A DNA stretch of 64,000 nucleotides from Fodinibius salipaludis (lineage in GTDB: Bacteria > Bacteroidota > Rhodothermia > Balneolales > Balneolaceae), in contig NZ_NSKE01000004.1 of assembly GCF_002287075.1 (NCBI RefSeq), positions 248,001-312,000 of the forward strand, given 5' to 3'. A program made the translations under genes and the position numbers. Shown here piece after piece: positions 40,640-49,843 of the stretch (position 1 is the stretch's first letter; each line of letters starts with the position of its first letter). Below the pieces are notes generated by a model. That model did no database searches and was not told where the DNA came from. It was given only the letters and a program-made list of their open reading frames with translations.

Positions 40640-41036
40640 TTATGTATTATAATATTTCCAGAAGTCTTAAAAATAAGATGTGAATTTTTCCCATTGGCGT
40701 ATTCCAAGATGGCTATTCATTTTTTGTGACCAAAAAACGAATACAAAAAGTCTCGGGAGAATCGTAGATATTGTACTTTTTATAATTGGCAGTAAGCTTT
40801 TTGCTCTAAAACGTCCACTGCTTTTTCGAATTCCTTTCCCGCGATTCACCCCGAACCCCAAATATACCCTCGAGAATTCTGATCCGTCTCGGAGCAAGCG
40901 AAGCCGTACCGTCCGCAAACAGCATTTTTTAATTCAATTTCCTTATTAACTCCCCCTGCAAAATCCTTATATTAATCGCTTGACTAAATGTCTGCACATT
41001 CCTCATTGATAATTCCTAATTCTTAATTCAAGTCTC
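40640..41036. repeat. Gene-free region with GACCAAAAAACGAA-type repeat
   Basis: The stretch 40715-40925 contains TTTTTTGTGACCAAAAAACG, GGGAGAATCGTAGAT, CCCGCGATTCACCCCGAACC, GAGAATTCTGATCCGTCTC and GGAGCAAGCGAAGC. The same blocks in the same order recur at 44488-44705. Parts (GAATTCTGA and the T-rich tail in reverse orientation) relate it to the long hairpin elements. Just before ettA are CTAATTCTTAATTC direct repeats. Confidence 0.65.
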
Positions 41037-44182: not shown

Positions 44183-44461
44183 TTACTTTGTTTTCCCGTC
44201 TAATAATGGTATTTCAGAATCTTCTCCTTCAGTCAGCTCATAGCCCCACTTTTTAAGCAGTGGCTTCTCCATGGATTCATCGCGATATTCATCGGGAATA
44301 AGAATAGGAATGCCATAGATTACCGGGAAGTAGCGGTTGCATTCAGGACAGCTCAAGAGCCCCTCGAGAATTTCACCTTCCTCCCCTTCGTTAATGATAT
44401 TAGCATTTAGATCGTGCTTGTCGATCGGGCAACATAGTTTTTCTAAGAGTTCTTTCGTCAT
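44183..44461 (-). CDS. Trm112-like (UPF0434) zinc protein
   Basis: A 92-aa protein with the Trm112/UPF0434 pattern: ELLEKLCCPIDKHDL at the N-terminus, a GLLSCPECNRYFPVIYGIPILIPDE zinc-ribbon and strand region, and an acidic C-terminal tail. Family members partner methyltransferases in eukaryotes and archaea; the bacterial role is unclear. It lies downstream of the TPP-riboswitch operon but 370 bp away across a repeat region, so it is probably separately transcribed. Confidence 0.87.
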   Translation of the reverse strand: MTKELLEKLCCPIDKHDLNANIINEGEEGEILEGLLSCPECNRYFPVIYGIPILIPDEYRDESMEKPLLKKWGYELTEGEDSEIPLLDGKTK

Positions 44462-44834
44462 TTAAATCTCATTTTTTTGGATGCAAAAATTGAATGTCCA
44501 TTTTTTGTCACCAAAAAACAGACGAAAAAAGTGCTGGGGGAATCGTAGATTTTGTTCTCAATAAAATGTTACATTAGTAGTTGCTCTAAGACGGAAAGTA
44601 GTTTTTTTGAATTTTTCCCGCGATTCGCCCCAGACCCCGATAACCCACCATATGAATTGTGAGCCGTCTCGGAGCAAGCGAAGCAGAGCCGTCCGAAAAT
44701 ATGCTTGTCTGAATGAGCAACGCGAATGAGTTTGCGTTTTTTCAGGCTCGATGAGCGACGCTCAGGCGAAGAATTCTCAGGTGGTGAGTTTTTTGGTTCG
44801 TTTTTTCCTCATTGAAAAAATGAACAGTAACATA
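44462..44834. repeat. Gene-free region with two dispersed-repeat modules
   Basis: The segment 44488-44705 repeats the block order of 40715-40925 (TTTTTTGTCACCAAAAAAC, GGAATCGTAGAT, CCCGCGATTCGCCCC, GGAGCAAGCGAAGC). The segment 44654-44822 is a hairpin-element relative with outer arms GAATTGTGA and GAATTCTCA and a tail GTGAGTTTTTTGGTTCG. It also holds ATGAGCGACGCTCAGGCGA-like short inverted repeats. No gene is visible. Confidence 0.65.
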
Positions 44835-45482
44835 TCACCTCTTAATTAACGCTTGATTATAATTCCGTGCTTTTTCTTTCGGTTCATCATCACTCAAAAT
44901 TCCGGAAATTACCGCCACGCCATTAAACTCTAACCCTTCCAGTCCGTCAATTTTTTCGGGCGTAATCCCACCGGACAAAAACAGCGGTATATCCGTAACC
45001 TCCCGCGCCTTGCGAACTGTTTCAGGACGTACGATCTCACAACTGCCCACGGAGGGCGACGGATACATCGCACAAAAAGAAACGTAATCAAAACTGTTTT
45101 CCTCGGCCCATTTAACGACTTCTAAATCGTTACTGCAAGTAATACCAGCAATAAAATCACGGCCTACTTTCTGTCGGATTTTATCAATATCATCGGGTAT
45201 CGAATCAAAATGTACACCGGCCAGATCTGTATTCTGCAACAATTCCCAGTCATCATTAATCAATACCGGCACACCATATTTCCCGGCCATCTCAATGATA
45301 TATGTAATCAACTGCTCTTTATCATACTCACTCATTCCATCGGGCCAGTGATTCCAGATCTGTAATATTTCTATACCGCCCTTCAAAGATTCTTCTATCT
45401 TTTTAAGTAGCACTTCGTGATCCATGGATGGATCGACAACCAAGTATAGACCGTTCAGTTCCTCATTTCTCATACTTTTCAA
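44835..45482 (-). CDS. Divergent thiamine-phosphate-synthase-like (ThiE/TenI fold) protein
   Basis: A TIM-barrel protein of the ThiE/TenI superfamily, 215 aa. Recognisable blocks are GLYLVVDPS, PVLINDDWELL, LAGVHFDSIPDD, GITCSNDLEVVKWA, FDYVSFCAMYPSPS and IPLFLSGGIT. The residues that bind HMP-pyrophosphate in ThiE differ: the usual Q-x-R-x-K strand is LQIWNHWPD, and the P-T-x-T-K loop is PSPSVGSCEIV with a cysteine. It is therefore a divergent ThiE or a paralogue with another role. It is the last gene of an operon led by a TPP riboswitch, so a thiamine link is well supported. Confidence 0.8.
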   Translation of the reverse strand: MKSMRNEELNGLYLVVDPSMDHEVLLKKIEESLKGGIEILQIWNHWPDGMSEYDKEQLITYIIEMAGKYGVPVLINDDWELLQNTDLAGVHFDSIPDDIDKIRQKVGRDFIAGITCSNDLEVVKWAEENSFDYVSFCAMYPSPSVGSCEIVRPETVRKAREVTDIPLFLSGGITPEKIDGLEGLEFNGVAVISGILSDDEPKEKARNYNQALIKR

Positions 45483-45524
45483 CTTTTTATTAGTAGCCCC
45501 CCCTTCAAAGGAGCACAGGAGAAC

Positions 45525-46589
45525 TTATTCCCAACCTTTTTCCATCGCTTTAAAAAATGCATTCCAATACGGATCGTTACCGTCGAACTTAAAAGAATCT
45601 TCCTTTCCATCTTCAATCAGGATGGTTGCCTCACTTTTTTCTGTCAACTCACCTACCACCGTCGCCGGAATGGACTGATCATTCAAGTAGTTCACAAGTG
45701 CTTCTTCCTTTCCTGCCGCTACGGCCATTATCATAGAGCCGGCCCCTACACAAAGACGGTGATCAATCTCAAAAAGCTCACAAATTTTTTGAGGCGCCTC
45801 TCCCACGGGAAGTTTATCACTATCTACGCGAAAGCCACAACCCGAAGCCTCGGCCAACTCAGTTATGCCACCAAGCAATCCACCCTCGGTAACATCGTGC
45901 ATGGCCTTTAATTCCGTTTTCGGTGCAAGCACCTTCGTTGCTTCCAGTGCATCTTGCAAAGATGAGGTGCGATAGAAATTTTCACAGGCCTGCTCATAAA
46001 TTTCCGGTCCGCACTCTTCTTTAACCGTCTCGGGAAAACTCTTCGCCAGAATCGAGGAAGAAACCAGCGCACTTTCTTTAGTAACTACAATTTTATCACC
46101 CGGTTCAGCACCGTCACTTGTTATAATTTCATCAAGCGGTGCCTGTAAAAACATCGTGCCACCACCCGGCGTTGTGGATTCCTGTCCCGGCACCTGCGCA
46201 GTATGTCCGCCGGTAATAGCAATACCTAAATCATCACAAAATTCGTGAATGTATTTCCAGTACTGCTCAAAAGAATCACGGGGGAAATCAGCCGGTAGAT
46301 TTAATACAAATTGCACATATTGTGGAGCAAATCCGGTAGTAGCCATATCGTTGACCAGTAAGTGCACCGACAGCCAGGCCGATTCTTTAAGTCCCAATAA
46401 CGGAATCAGCGAGACCGGGTCACTCGAAGTCGCCAGTCCGTTACCATTCCCAAGATCAATGACGGCCGTATCCACACCAAAGCCGGGACCGGTAATAACT
46501 TCATCCCGCTTCCGACCGCTTTGCGGTTCAATTATTTGCCGGAAGAGTTTGCTGCTTATTTTTCCACTTTGATCTTCAAATGCACTCAT
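45525..46589 (-). CDS. AIR-synthase-related protein (HypE/ThiL/PurM superfamily)
   Basis: A two-domain ATP-binding protein of the PurM/HypE/ThiL superfamily, 354 aa. The N-terminal half has GPGFGVDTAVIDLGNGNGLATSSDPVS in two pieces, a LVNDMATTGFAPQY helix and GGHTAQVPG. The C-terminal half has GDKIVVTKESALVSSS, HDVTEGGLLGGITELAE and a final GKEEA strand. No [NiFe] hydrogenase genes are near. Its location 2 bp after a methyltransferase gene and under a TPP riboswitch suggests a ThiL-like kinase or another ATP-dependent step in thiamine metabolism. That assignment is inference. Confidence 0.82.
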   Translation of the reverse strand: MSAFEDQSGKISSKLFRQIIEPQSGRKRDEVITGPGFGVDTAVIDLGNGNGLATSSDPVSLIPLLGLKESAWLSVHLLVNDMATTGFAPQYVQFVLNLPADFPRDSFEQYWKYIHEFCDDLGIAITGGHTAQVPGQESTTPGGGTMFLQAPLDEIITSDGAEPGDKIVVTKESALVSSSILAKSFPETVKEECGPEIYEQACENFYRTSSLQDALEATKVLAPKTELKAMHDVTEGGLLGGITELAEASGCGFRVDSDKLPVGEAPQKICELFEIDHRLCVGAGSMIMAVAAGKEEALVNYLNDQSIPATVVGELTEKSEATILIEDGKEDSFKFDGNDPYWNAFFKAMEKGWE

Positions 46590-46591
46590 AC

Positions 46592-47329
46592 TTATCTGTT
46601 TTCTTCGACATCAGTTAACTTTACATGCAGCCCAAAAAAATCGCCGATCGGTAGTCCCCAACGCTGCACGGGGAACCATTTGGGCAGGCCGGTGGCCGTC
46701 CATTCAATCTCATACAATCGTCCCTCGAGCGCCTCGTGAATAGTGTCAATCAGCTTATTCGGCGTATAGAAATTGGCCGTCTCATAATAGGGGTTCGCTC
46801 CGAAAACCTCCTGCACGCGCCGGCGCATCACTTTCGTAGAATTGCGATTCATAATACCAAAAATCATCCCGTACTTTCCTACACGAACCGCCTCACGGAT
46901 CACCTTGATCGGATCATCGTAATAAGCAAACGTAGCGATAAAAGCCAGTGCATCAAATGTGTTGTCTTTAAACGGCATGTGATGAGAATCGGCCCATACC
47001 AGATCACCGTCAAAATGTTTGTTTCCTTCACCTAACATAAACGGCGAAATATCCGCCCCAGTGGCCTCAATACCAATTTCCTGCCACCAGCGAGTAAAAC
47101 GGGTCGTTCCACATCCGTATTCCAGCAGGGTTTCTACGCGCTCATCTTTTTGGATAAGCTTGGCCAACACCTTCTTCTGCCAGATCTCAGCCCGCTTATA
47201 GCGACCCTCATAATAATCCTCATACACTTCGGTGTGCTCACGATTGAAAAACCATTCTTCGCGATCCTGCCACTGCTCAAGTTTCTTGGTGGCCAGCTCA
47301 AACTTTTTCTTTTGGAGTTTATCACTCAT
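46592..47329 (-). CDS. Class I SAM-dependent methyltransferase under TPP riboswitch control
   Basis: A 245-aa Rossmann-fold methyltransferase. Motif I is LLEYGCGTTRFTRWW (about residues 68-82), followed by GADISPFMLGEGN and the acidic VWADSHHMPFKDNTFDAL. The later FIATFAYYDDPIKVIREAVRVG is typical of the Methyltransf_11 group. The N-terminal helix is Lys/Glu-rich. It is the first gene after a TPP riboswitch and ends 2 bp before the AIR-synthase-like gene. The substrate is unknown; thiamine regulation of a methyltransferase is unusual. Confidence 0.85.
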   Translation of the reverse strand: MSDKLQKKKFELATKKLEQWQDREEWFFNREHTEVYEDYYEGRYKRAEIWQKKVLAKLIQKDERVETLLEYGCGTTRFTRWWQEIGIEATGADISPFMLGEGNKHFDGDLVWADSHHMPFKDNTFDALAFIATFAYYDDPIKVIREAVRVGKYGMIFGIMNRNSTKVMRRRVQEVFGANPYYETANFYTPNKLIDTIHEALEGRLYEIEWTATGLPKWFPVQRWGLPIGDFFGLHVKLTDVEENR

Positions 47330-47423
47330 TGCATCATGCTAAAAATTTCAAAGTTCGGTTCCGACCGGATGGATAATAACAGACAGGCAATCAGCCGGAC
47401 ACATAACTTGCAATAAGCAGACT

Positions 47424-47497
47424 GGTTCCCTACGCTGGTATTATCCAGATCAGGTCGAAGGGTTTGATCTCAGCCCCGTTTTACGGGGCACCCCTGA
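47424..47497 (-). promoter_or_regulatory. TPP (thiamine pyrophosphate) riboswitch
   Basis: On the minus strand the THI-box consensus is clear: CAGGGGTGCCCCG, AACGGGGCTGAGAT, ACCCTTCGACCTGATCTGG and ATAATACCAGCGTAGGGAA. The conserved GCTGAGA and GACCTGATCTGGATAATACC parts are intact. It lies about 95 nt upstream of the methyltransferase start and should repress the three-gene operon when TPP is abundant. Confidence 0.96.
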
Positions 47498-47614
47498 AAA
47501 AGTTAAAGTAATGATTTTCGAGGGATTGGTAAACAAACATATTATCAGACTTGTAACATAGATGACATTAAGTAATCTTATCTACAAAGGCCAACAGAGA
47601 GCAAACAATTAATT

Positions 47615-48898: not shown

Positions 48899-49843
48899 TC
48901 ATTTCTTTTTAAGATATTGCAGAGAAAAATAACTCTTATCATCCGTCCACACTTTCTCTACCGAATACCAATCAGCAACCAACTCCTCAAATTCCTCAAG
49001 ACCATACTTATATGAACTTTCGGTATGGATCGATTCGCCCTTCTCAAACGCTATTCTCTGATCCCCAATAGTAACCGTCTGTTTTTGGGATGATATCAGA
49101 TGCATTTCAATGCGTCCGGCCTCTTCATTATAAAACGCCTTGTGCCTAAACTTTTCGATATCAAAATCGGCACCCAATACTCGATTAAGGTGTGTCAACA
49201 TATTTTTATTGAACTGAGCTGTAATACCTTGCTTATCATTATAAGCCGCTTCCAGCACCTTCGGATCTTTCTTCAAATCCACCCCCACAAGCATCTCTGA
49301 ATCATCAGCGGTAATGCCTGCCATATTATTCAAAAATACCTGTACCTCTTCGGGATCAAAATTACCAATCGTCGAACCCGGAAAAAATACGACCTGTTTC
49401 TGGTTTGAACCTTCTGTAACCGGCAGATCAAAATTTGATGTGTAATCTGCAAAAACAGGAATAATAGATATTTTTGGATATTCCAGGCGCAATTGACTAA
49501 CCGTCTTCAACAAAAATTCTTCTGAAATATCAACCGGTATATAGGTGGAAAGGTCTGATAACTCTTCGAGCAAAAACCGGGTTTTGTAACTGCTTCCACT
49601 GCCCAGCTCTATCAGCATCACATCTTTACCAATACACCCTGCAATATCTTTAATATTATTTTGCAGGATCTCCTTTTCGCAATCGGTAAGATAGTATTCA
49701 TTGAGACGAGTAATCTGTTCAAACAGATCTGACCCCTTTTCGTCGTAAAAATACTTGCTGGGCAGCTGTTTTTGAGACTTGGTCAATCCTTCCAACACCT
49801 CTTTTTGCATAATACTGGCATCGACCGACGAAAGATCTTCCAT
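48899..49843 (-). CDS. egtD: L-histidine N-alpha-methyltransferase (EgtD)
   Basis: Trimethylates histidine to hercynine, the first step of ergothioneine synthesis. It has the EgtD-type N-terminal block SKYFYDEKGSDLFEQITRL, NEYYLTDCE, motif I MLIELGSGSSYKTRFLL, YIPVDISEEFL and FFPGSTIGNFDPEE. The length of 314 aa is typical. No egtB or egtE gene is in the window, so ergothioneine synthesis from this gene alone is not shown. Oxidative-stress protection is the expected role. Confidence 0.92.
   Translation of the reverse strand: MEDLSSVDASIMQKEVLEGLTKSQKQLPSKYFYDEKGSDLFEQITRLNEYYLTDCEKEILQNNIKDIAGCIGKDVMLIELGSGSSYKTRFLLEELSDLSTYIPVDISEEFLLKTVSQLRLEYPKISIIPVFADYTSNFDLPVTEGSNQKQVVFFPGSTIGNFDPEEVQVFLNNMAGITADDSEMLVGVDLKKDPKVLEAAYNDKQGITAQFNKNMLTHLNRVLGADFDIEKFRHKAFYNEEAGRIEMHLISSQKQTVTIGDQRIAFEKGESIHTESSYKYGLEEFEELVADWYSVEKVWTDDKSYFSLQYLKKK

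Follow-up and report, generated by a model that had tools for sequence, protein, structure and literature searches.

Why would enzymes with no standard place in thiamine biosynthesis be encoded behind a TPP riboswitch? The question is raised by a 64,000-nucleotide stretch of the Fodinibius salipaludis genome (contig NZ_NSKE01000004.1, positions 248,001 to 312,000; hereafter the window), in which a riboswitch of this type precedes genes for a class I methyltransferase, a protein resembling AIR synthase and ThiL, and a ThiE-like protein. Judged from the sequence, the riboswitch supports a link between the two non-standard genes, those for the methyltransferase and the AIR-synthase-like protein, and thiamine biology. 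An initial annotation had proposed that the operon holds a missing kinase or a salvage or modification route. Here, we examine the composition and conservation of this operon, the thiamine genes that accompany it in other genomes, and the explanations that could account for it.

Results

A TPP riboswitch precedes a conserved four-gene operon

The operon leader contains a TPP riboswitch (THI box; 47410-47505, minus strand) that matches the full RF00059 covariance model (positions 1-105) with 67.9 bits (gathering threshold 54.3, E 3.3e-11), confirming the THI-box that had been placed, to within a few bases, before three tightly packed genes. The ATG of the first gene lies 80 nt downstream. The folding stability of the leader was no better than that of shuffled sequences (z -0.35), and a check for terminator-like sites gave no excess (4 observed, 3.2 expected). 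The three genes of the initial annotation are real, but a fourth member had been overlooked, and the complete order on one strand is methyltransferase, AIR-synthase-like, ThiE-like and Trm112-like. The last of these encodes a zinc-knuckle protein of 92 aa (44183-44461, minus strand; Trm112p, Pfam PF03966, 35.1 bits, cutoff 22). In the window it is separated from the ThiE-like gene by a spacer (44465-44834, no strand assigned) holding a dispersed repeat that is 75% identical over 207 columns to window positions 40718-40919, unlike most relatives, in which the two genes are near-adjacent or overlap (median gap -4 nt).

The arrangement was compared in 80 related loci of Bacteroidota/Balneolota, the best 80 of 171. 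The methyltransferase gene stands before the AIR-synthase-like gene in all 80, the ThiE-like and Trm112-like genes come next in 79, the exception being a contig end, and all four share one strand in this order in 79/80; the median intergenic gaps along the order are -1, -4 and -4 nt. The covariance model (R1) placed a TPP riboswitch upstream of the operon in 75 of these best 80 loci, whereas a regular expression written by hand to match the core of the riboswitch reached only 27, because the pattern was too strict. Among the relatives of the same class, Rfam places the riboswitch ahead of the methyltransferase gene in 9 of 11. The placement of the methyltransferase gene behind the riboswitch, on which the initial annotation depended, thus extends to relatives, in nearly all of which it is the first gene after the riboswitch. 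Most of the 80 loci, which come from other species, show this riboswitch and gene order again, so the arrangement is not a product of chance. Mean pairwise identity (70 rows) is 74% for the methyltransferase, 55% for the AIR-synthase-like, 45% for the ThiE-like and 50% for the Trm112-like protein. Beyond the four genes, no further conserved neighbour was found, no family occurring in more than 12 of the best 80 loci.

A connection to ergothioneine was considered and rejected. The gene egtD adjoins the operon only in the window and in the same-genus relatives L032 and L033; it is not seen within the stretches of the nine other class relatives and is present in one of the best 80 loci, L043, which is on the same contig as L033. 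Since egtD is nearly absent beside the operon in other relatives, its adjacency is treated as chance.

The AIR-synthase-like protein is distinct from ThiL

The second gene (45525-46589, minus strand) encodes an AIR-synthase/ThiL/HypE-like ATP enzyme of 354 aa. Its PurM superfamily domains score above their cutoffs (AIRS_C 88.6 bits against 23.1, AIRS 46.7 against 24), and the protein shares with ThiL, HypE, SelD and PurM the fold family and the ATP/metal motifs, retaining GxD, SD, ND, GGHT and HDxTEGG. It differs from these enzymes in falling under every NCBIfam cutoff, in reading GGH where ThiL has GGD, and in ending with a DPYWxAFF tail of its own. HypE, a hydrogenase maturation protein, has a C-terminal cysteine tail; that identity was rejected, since this tail is missing and the score against TIGR02124 is far below the cutoff (75.3 vs 251.6 bits). 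Haloarchaeal AIR synthase family proteins are about 30-32% identical to it over most of its length and have both GGHT and HDxTEGG. The Haloarcula gene adjoins genes for a thiamine-binding protein and a thiamine ABC transporter substrate-binding protein, and in the haloarchaeal regions examined the other three operon members are not annotated alongside.

The best NCBIfam match of the AIR-synthase-like protein is thiL (TIGR01379, 85.3 bits), and with its superfamily motifs intact it could be imagined as the missing ThiL kinase, as had been suggested. The match is well short of the cutoff of 184.15 bits, however, and the search for a canonical thiL that the initial annotation had called for located one in the same genome (G000:C2:60152-61117; TIGR01379 249 bits, cutoff 184). 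A canonical ThiL above cutoff was in fact present in 40/40 genomes tested, irrespective of the presence of the operon. The missing-kinase proposal is thereby largely refuted, and we consider it highly improbable.

The ThiE-like protein retains the fold and has lost the diphosphate motifs

The third gene (44835-45482, minus strand) encodes a ThiE/TenI-like TIM barrel of 215 aa (TMP-TENI 112.5 bits) reading from a TTG; an ATG three codons downstream, at 45473, is a possible alternative start. An AlphaFold2 model (pLDDT 90.4) has 2tps as its best structural match (TMq 0.85, E 2e-14), indicating that the ThiE fold is kept, and the conserved GG and the VAVISGI-type phosphate end of the TMP-TENI family are retained. 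The protein nonetheless differs from ThiE in missing the cutoff of the equivalog TIGR00693 (107.8 vs 145.1 bits), in the loss of two motifs and in the gain of two cysteines. In ThiE the QxRxK and TK residues serve the diphosphate. In the aligned ThiE-like rows the QxRxK position reads QxWN/Dx, so that the R is lost throughout and the K in most rows, the TK motif is gone, and position 77, the counterpart of the Asp beside a conserved Asn, is variable. C137 and C148, on the other hand, occur in 99% or more of 80 rows.

These substitutions bear on the possibility that the operon is canonical salvage in disguise, in which the ThiE-like protein would be a true ThMP synthase acting on HMP-PP, the AIR-synthase-like protein would replace ThiD or the thiazole kinase, and the methyltransferase and Trm112-like protein would be accessory. 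The fold and the PDB match to ThiE are in keeping with this, as is the fact that in several carriers the ThiE-like protein is the only member of the ThiE family, weak matches aside, and that ThiD is missing in 18/20 carriers tested. The loss of the residues that serve the diphosphate argues against it, and it leaves unexplained why a methyltransferase should be the first and most conserved gene; we regard it as unlikely.

A methyltransferase and its probable Trm112-like partner

The first gene (46592-47329, minus strand) encodes a class I SAM methyltransferase of 245 aa (Methyltransf_11, 59 bits, cutoff 21.2) with E-x-G-C-G-T as motif I in the alignment; its structure model is of low confidence (pLDDT 45.6). 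It is the most conserved member of the operon and the least explained, and no thiamine step that we know of calls for such a SAM methyltransferase. Bud23 and Trm9 are methyltransferases that depend on Trm112. Co-occurrence suggests that the Trm112-like protein is the probable partner of the operon methyltransferase; it scores below the archaeal equivalog NF038101 (62.7 vs 77 bits), and its six PDB sequence matches include a probable 18S rRNA (guanine-N7) methyltransferase of the Bud23 type. As in the Bud23 and Trm9 systems, a small Trm112-like protein goes with a class I methyltransferase, here in one operon; the difference is that this operon is bacterial and metabolic and stands behind a TPP riboswitch, with a putative interaction.

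A methyltransferase as first gene also allows that the product is not thiamine at all but a methylated, thiamine-related or other compound that is needed under TPP scarcity, such as a bacimethrin-like antivitamin or a TPP-sparing compound. A precedent exists in Clostridium, where a TPP-controlled bacimethrin/thiaminase cluster includes a methyltransferase. The other known bacimethrin enzymes are, however, absent from the four genes, and any extra family beside the operon is limited to at most 12 of the best 80 loci, which makes this explanation distinctly unlikely.

Operon carriers tested mostly lack ThiC, ThiD, ThiG and above-cutoff ThiE

Among 20 operon-carrying genomes tested, ThiL was present in 20, ThiD in two (G070 and G200), and ThiC and an above-cutoff ThiE in one, G200; ThiG above 300 bits occurred in 0/20. 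Within the family of the window, ThiG and above-cutoff ThiE were found in 0/12 carriers and in 7/20 non-carriers (Fisher two-sided p 0.029, kinship not corrected for). Twelve genomes of the same genus comprise four operon carriers, seven with ThiG and one with neither, the operon and ThiG never occurring together. One locus of this genus, L160, has the order riboswitch-thiL-thiD-tenA-thiO-thiS-thiG-thiE-thiE. The four-gene operon resembles such TPP riboswitch-controlled thi operons in its leader and in having one ThiE-family and one ThiL-superfamily gene, but ThiD, ThiG, ThiS, ThiO and TenA are absent and a methyltransferase and a Trm112-like gene stand instead. A phylum-wide survey, in which four proteins were joined into one query and three candidates were scored per genome, and which so cannot show exclusion, placed the methyltransferase in at least 4/158 genomes, all of the window's family and, among the matches listed, without ThiC, ThiD or ThiG.

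The absence of ThiC, ThiG, ThiD and above-cutoff ThiE from most carriers tested, in a survey of the canonical genes, could mean that the operon enzymes form the core of a new and complete biosynthetic route. This is improbable, since a set of three enzymes plus a partner is small for the construction of two heterocycles.

Genes for uptake under TPP control are present in the carriers as well. Thiamine pyrophosphokinase is present in 11/12 carriers of the window's family, and PF04263 (TPK) had no match in 7/8 carriers reached from the wider related loci. The other TPP riboswitches of the carriers examined lie mostly ahead of TonB-receptor-like ORFs, in Pedobacter alongside genes for a PnuT-like transporter and for an AAA_28 kinase. 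Such riboswitches before uptake-type genes are as expected if the carriers are thiamine scavengers and, with the thiamine pyrophosphokinase, suggest that the carriers can probably live on plain thiamine.

By eye, an unassigned ORF beside a second ThiE copy (L162, L163) looks like a divergent TPK. The idea that TPK-less carriers obtain ThMP from the operon alone was considered and lost weight: this ORF, and the AAA_28 kinase beside the PnuT-like gene, offer other possible origins for ThMP or TPP. ThiL, in turn, is no proof that the operon makes ThMP, since non-carriers without ThiC and ThiE have it as well.

Discussion

With the missing kinase set aside, salvage or modification is the best reading left of the two originally put forward. 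Most likely, the operon serves to salvage or repair thiamine by a route that ends at ThMP and dispenses with HMP-PP from ThiD, although its chemistry is a matter of inference. More specifically, we suggest, tentatively, that the four genes constitute a single thiamine-acquisition module, turned off under TPP, that produces ThMP from a thiamine derivative which is scavenged, damaged or incomplete. The observed basis of this proposal is the riboswitch, the gene order and its conservation, the diphosphate motif that has been lost, and the finding that most carriers tested have no ThiC, ThiD, ThiG or above-cutoff ThiE.

In such a module, falling TPP would permit synthesis of the methyltransferase and its Trm112-like partner, the ATP-using PurM-superfamily enzyme and the ThiE-like enzyme. 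The AIR-synthase-like enzyme might phosphorylate or ATP-activate the thiazole side, and the methyltransferase-Trm112 pair might add a methyl group or make a leaving group. The ThiE-like enzyme would bind the thiazole-side phosphate and, with no need of HMP-PP, form, exchange or rearrange the bond to the pyrimidine; one of the two invariant cysteines might take part. The ordinary ThiL of the cell would then convert the resulting ThMP to TPP. It is possible, if speculative, that this amounts to an undescribed route to ThMP without HMP diphosphate. A PurM-type enzyme and a methyltransferase dependent on Trm112 would do the preparatory work, and a protein descended from ThiE, its active site remodelled, would use a cysteine to join or exchange the pyrimidine. 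In many Bacteroidota that live by scavenging, such a route would replace the canonical pathway.

No description of the four-gene operon was found in the literature searched, including passages of PMC5613172, PMC3766115 and PMC9723704; PMC3766115 has Bacteroidaceae as its Bacteroidetes set and a main text in which the word methyltransferase does not appear.

The operon offers four defined, co-regulated genes with culturable carriers, and hence a directly testable question. A role in thiamine metabolism for a SAM methyltransferase and a Trm112-like partner would, if true, be new chemistry. Microbial communities are shaped by thiamine supply, and genome-based predictions of vitamin needs look for ThiC, ThiD, ThiE and ThiG. 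If the operon does restore thiamine from its derivatives, many Bacteroidota that have been called auxotrophs would have been misread.

Structure and conservation of the operon

A TPP riboswitch (RF00059; 47410-47505, minus strand; 67.9 bits, gathering score 54.3) precedes three closely packed minus-strand genes encoding a class I methyltransferase (245 aa), an AIR-synthase-like protein (354 aa) and a ThiE-like protein (215 aa), with each Pfam family confirmed, as the initial annotation had described. Its placement of the operon end at 44835, where the ThiE-like gene ends, was too short, since the fourth gene in line, encoding a Trm112-like protein by Pfam (92 aa; 44183-44461, minus strand), is counted as a member from comparison with relatives. 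None of the first three proteins reached an NCBIfam equivalog cutoff; scores were 85 bits for thiL (cutoff 184), 75 for hypE (cutoff 252) and 108 for thiE (cutoff 145). The spacer between the ThiE-like and Trm112-like genes (44465-44834) holds a dispersed intergenic repeat that recurs at 40718-40919 with 75% identity over 207 columns. Upstream of the operon is egtD (48899-49843, minus strand; L-histidine N-alpha-methyltransferase, 398 bits, cutoff 291), which also lies beside the operon in two same-genus relatives, not generally.

The AIR-synthase-like protein is present in 12 of 195 genomes of the window's class, all from one family, and the order methyltransferase, AIR-synthase-like, ThiE-like, Trm112-like is kept in all 12 (the window and 11 others). 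Rfam detects the riboswitch ahead of the methyltransferase gene in nine of the 11 others; one remaining stretch (L035) begins within that gene, and the other (L042) has no match above the gathering score, yet its riboswitch is detected by R1, a covariance model trained on 11 riboswitches. Scanning 84,980 species genomes yielded 171 confirmed relatives, and the best 80 loci, whose counts overlap those of the class relatives because some share genomes (e.g., L043 and L033), are all from Bacteroidota or Balneolota, with genera including Pontibacter, Algoriphagus, Mucilaginibacter, Pedobacter, Chryseobacterium, Gramella and Neolewinella. Among these best 80 of 171, the methyltransferase gene precedes that of the AIR-synthase-like protein in every locus, the ThiE-like and Trm112-like genes lie downstream in 79 (the exception, L050, meets a contig end), and R1 finds the riboswitch upstream of the methyltransferase in 75, the others being L045 (truncated by a contig end), L077, L081, L099 and L107. 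Median intergenic gaps along the relatives' operons are -1, -4 and -4 nt, and any further neighbor is conserved in at most 12 of the 80 loci. Pairwise distances of the four proteins correlate (Spearman 0.30 to 0.65; 70 rows), and mean pairwise identity is highest for the methyltransferase (74%) and lowest for the ThiE-like protein (45%).

The encoded proteins

The AlphaFold2 model of the ThiE-like protein (pLDDT 90.4) has thiamin phosphate synthase 2tps as its best PDB match (TMq 0.85). Aligned with the relatives' ThiE copies, the protein retains the GVH and GGI segments, the VAVISGI phosphate end at its terminus and, within QxRxK, the Gln; QxRxK has become QxWN/Dx (R is replaced, and K in most rows), the TK motif is gone, and the residue following the conserved Asn is variable. 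In ThiE, these altered or lost residues hold the diphosphate of HMP-PP. The protein therefore probably binds a thiazole phosphate or ThMP rather than HMP-PP. C137 and C148, each present in at least 99% of the 80 rows, follow the modeled strand ending at 136 and precede the next helix, which places them on the barrel's mouth side.

The AIR-synthase-like protein retains the superfamily motifs GxD, SD, ND and HDxTEGG and has GGH where ThiL has GGD; its PDB sequence matches are HypE, ThiL, SelD and PurM. Haloarchaeal relatives share about 30-32% identity. The one in Haloarcula pelagica lies divergently beside genes for a thiamine-binding protein and a thiamine ABC transporter substrate-binding protein, and relatives in Halobacterium, Acaryochloris and Haloferax have different neighbors. 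In the methyltransferase, the SAM motif is intact; the structure model of this protein is poor (pLDDT 45.6). Among the six PDB sequence matches to the methyltransferase is a probable 18S rRNA (guanine-N7) methyltransferase (Bud23, a Trm112 partner), in agreement with a Trm112-like gene closing the operon.

Thiamine genes in carriers and non-carriers

The initial annotation had suggested that the operon might supply a missing ThiL. The window's genome (39 contigs totaling 3.58 Mb, 98.9% complete) encodes a canonical ThiL at C2:60152-61117 (249 bits against a cutoff of 184), and the missing-kinase idea, with the AIR-synthase-like gene as its candidate, therefore falls; ThiL is above cutoff in all 40 genomes compared (from the window's family, 12 genomes with the operon, here called carriers, and 20 non-carriers, plus eight other carriers reached via loci L053, L064, L078, L095, L093, L113, L048 and L077). 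The window genome's thiL adjoins ftsH, and ThiL is retained even by family members that lack the operon as well as ThiE/ThiG. In the window's genome the ThiE-like gene itself is the sole strong TMP-TENI match; the next-best, on C37, belong to an ORF read as the histidine-biosynthesis protein HisF.

ThiC was found in one of the 40 genomes, the carrier Gramella sp. AN32. ThiD, searched with PF08543 at E <= 1e-20 in 33 genomes (seven non-carriers left out), occurs in two of 20 carriers, namely G070 and Gramella, and in two of 13 non-carriers. Thus, most carriers seem to lack the known route for making or activating the pyrimidine. ThiE is above cutoff in eight of the 40 genomes (Gramella plus seven non-carriers that belong to the window's genus), and ThiG exceeds 300 bits solely in the same seven; ThiG matches of about 20-30 bits were discounted, though some exceed the Pfam cutoff. 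ThiG or above-cutoff ThiE is thus present in 0/12 family carriers, two of them (G185 and G163) just 86-88% complete, versus 7/20 non-carriers (Fisher two-sided p 0.029), and within the genus in 0/4 versus 7/8 (p 0.010), both values being indicative only, because the genomes are related. One of the seven, from locus L160, has a classical riboswitch-thiL-thiD-tenA-thiO-thiS-thiG-thiE-thiE operon (L160:7612-13634) with two adjacent ThiE genes; since its genome has no ThiC, the thiazole branch is retained and the pyrimidine presumably scavenged. TPK (PF04263) is present in 32 of the 40 genomes: 11/12 family carriers, 20/20 family non-carriers and 1/8 other carriers. In Pedobacter and Mucilaginibacter, a ~190-aa ORF next to a divergent ThiE copy (L163:8381-8971 and L162:8676-9248) matches nothing in Pfam or NCBIfam at E 0.01 but looks TPK-like by eye and may be an unrecognized TPK.

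Most of the further TPP riboswitches read in carriers lie ahead of TonB-receptor-like ORFs, as does the second above-cutoff riboswitch of the window's genome (L014), and in Pedobacter such an ORF has genes for a PnuT-like transporter and for an AAA_28 kinase as neighbors. This pattern fits scavengers of thiamine compounds, a habit described for gut Bacteroidetes (PMC5613172). At L163:3849-4379 the AAA_28 (NadR-like) kinase gene overlaps that of the PnuT-like transporter, near a TPP-riboswitch TonB receptor, and could encode a thiamine kinase feeding ThiL. A third, weak riboswitch match in the window's genome (L003:1501-1595; C1:82079-82173, plus strand; 39.1 bits, below cutoff), behind which no plus-strand ORF was found, is possibly a remnant.

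A proposed role in thiamine salvage

TPP riboswitches shut genes off at high TPP. The riboswitch, together with the relatives of ThiE and ThiL, leads us to put the operon in thiamine supply; literature searches, with most subscription papers outside their reach, did not find it described. The absence of ThiC, ThiD, ThiG and above-cutoff ThiE from most carriers tested argues against ordinary HMP-PP use, and the altered ThiE-like site accords with this. On these same grounds, we favor a role in which the operon would salvage or repair some thiamine derivative to ThMP, which the canonical ThiL would then finish.
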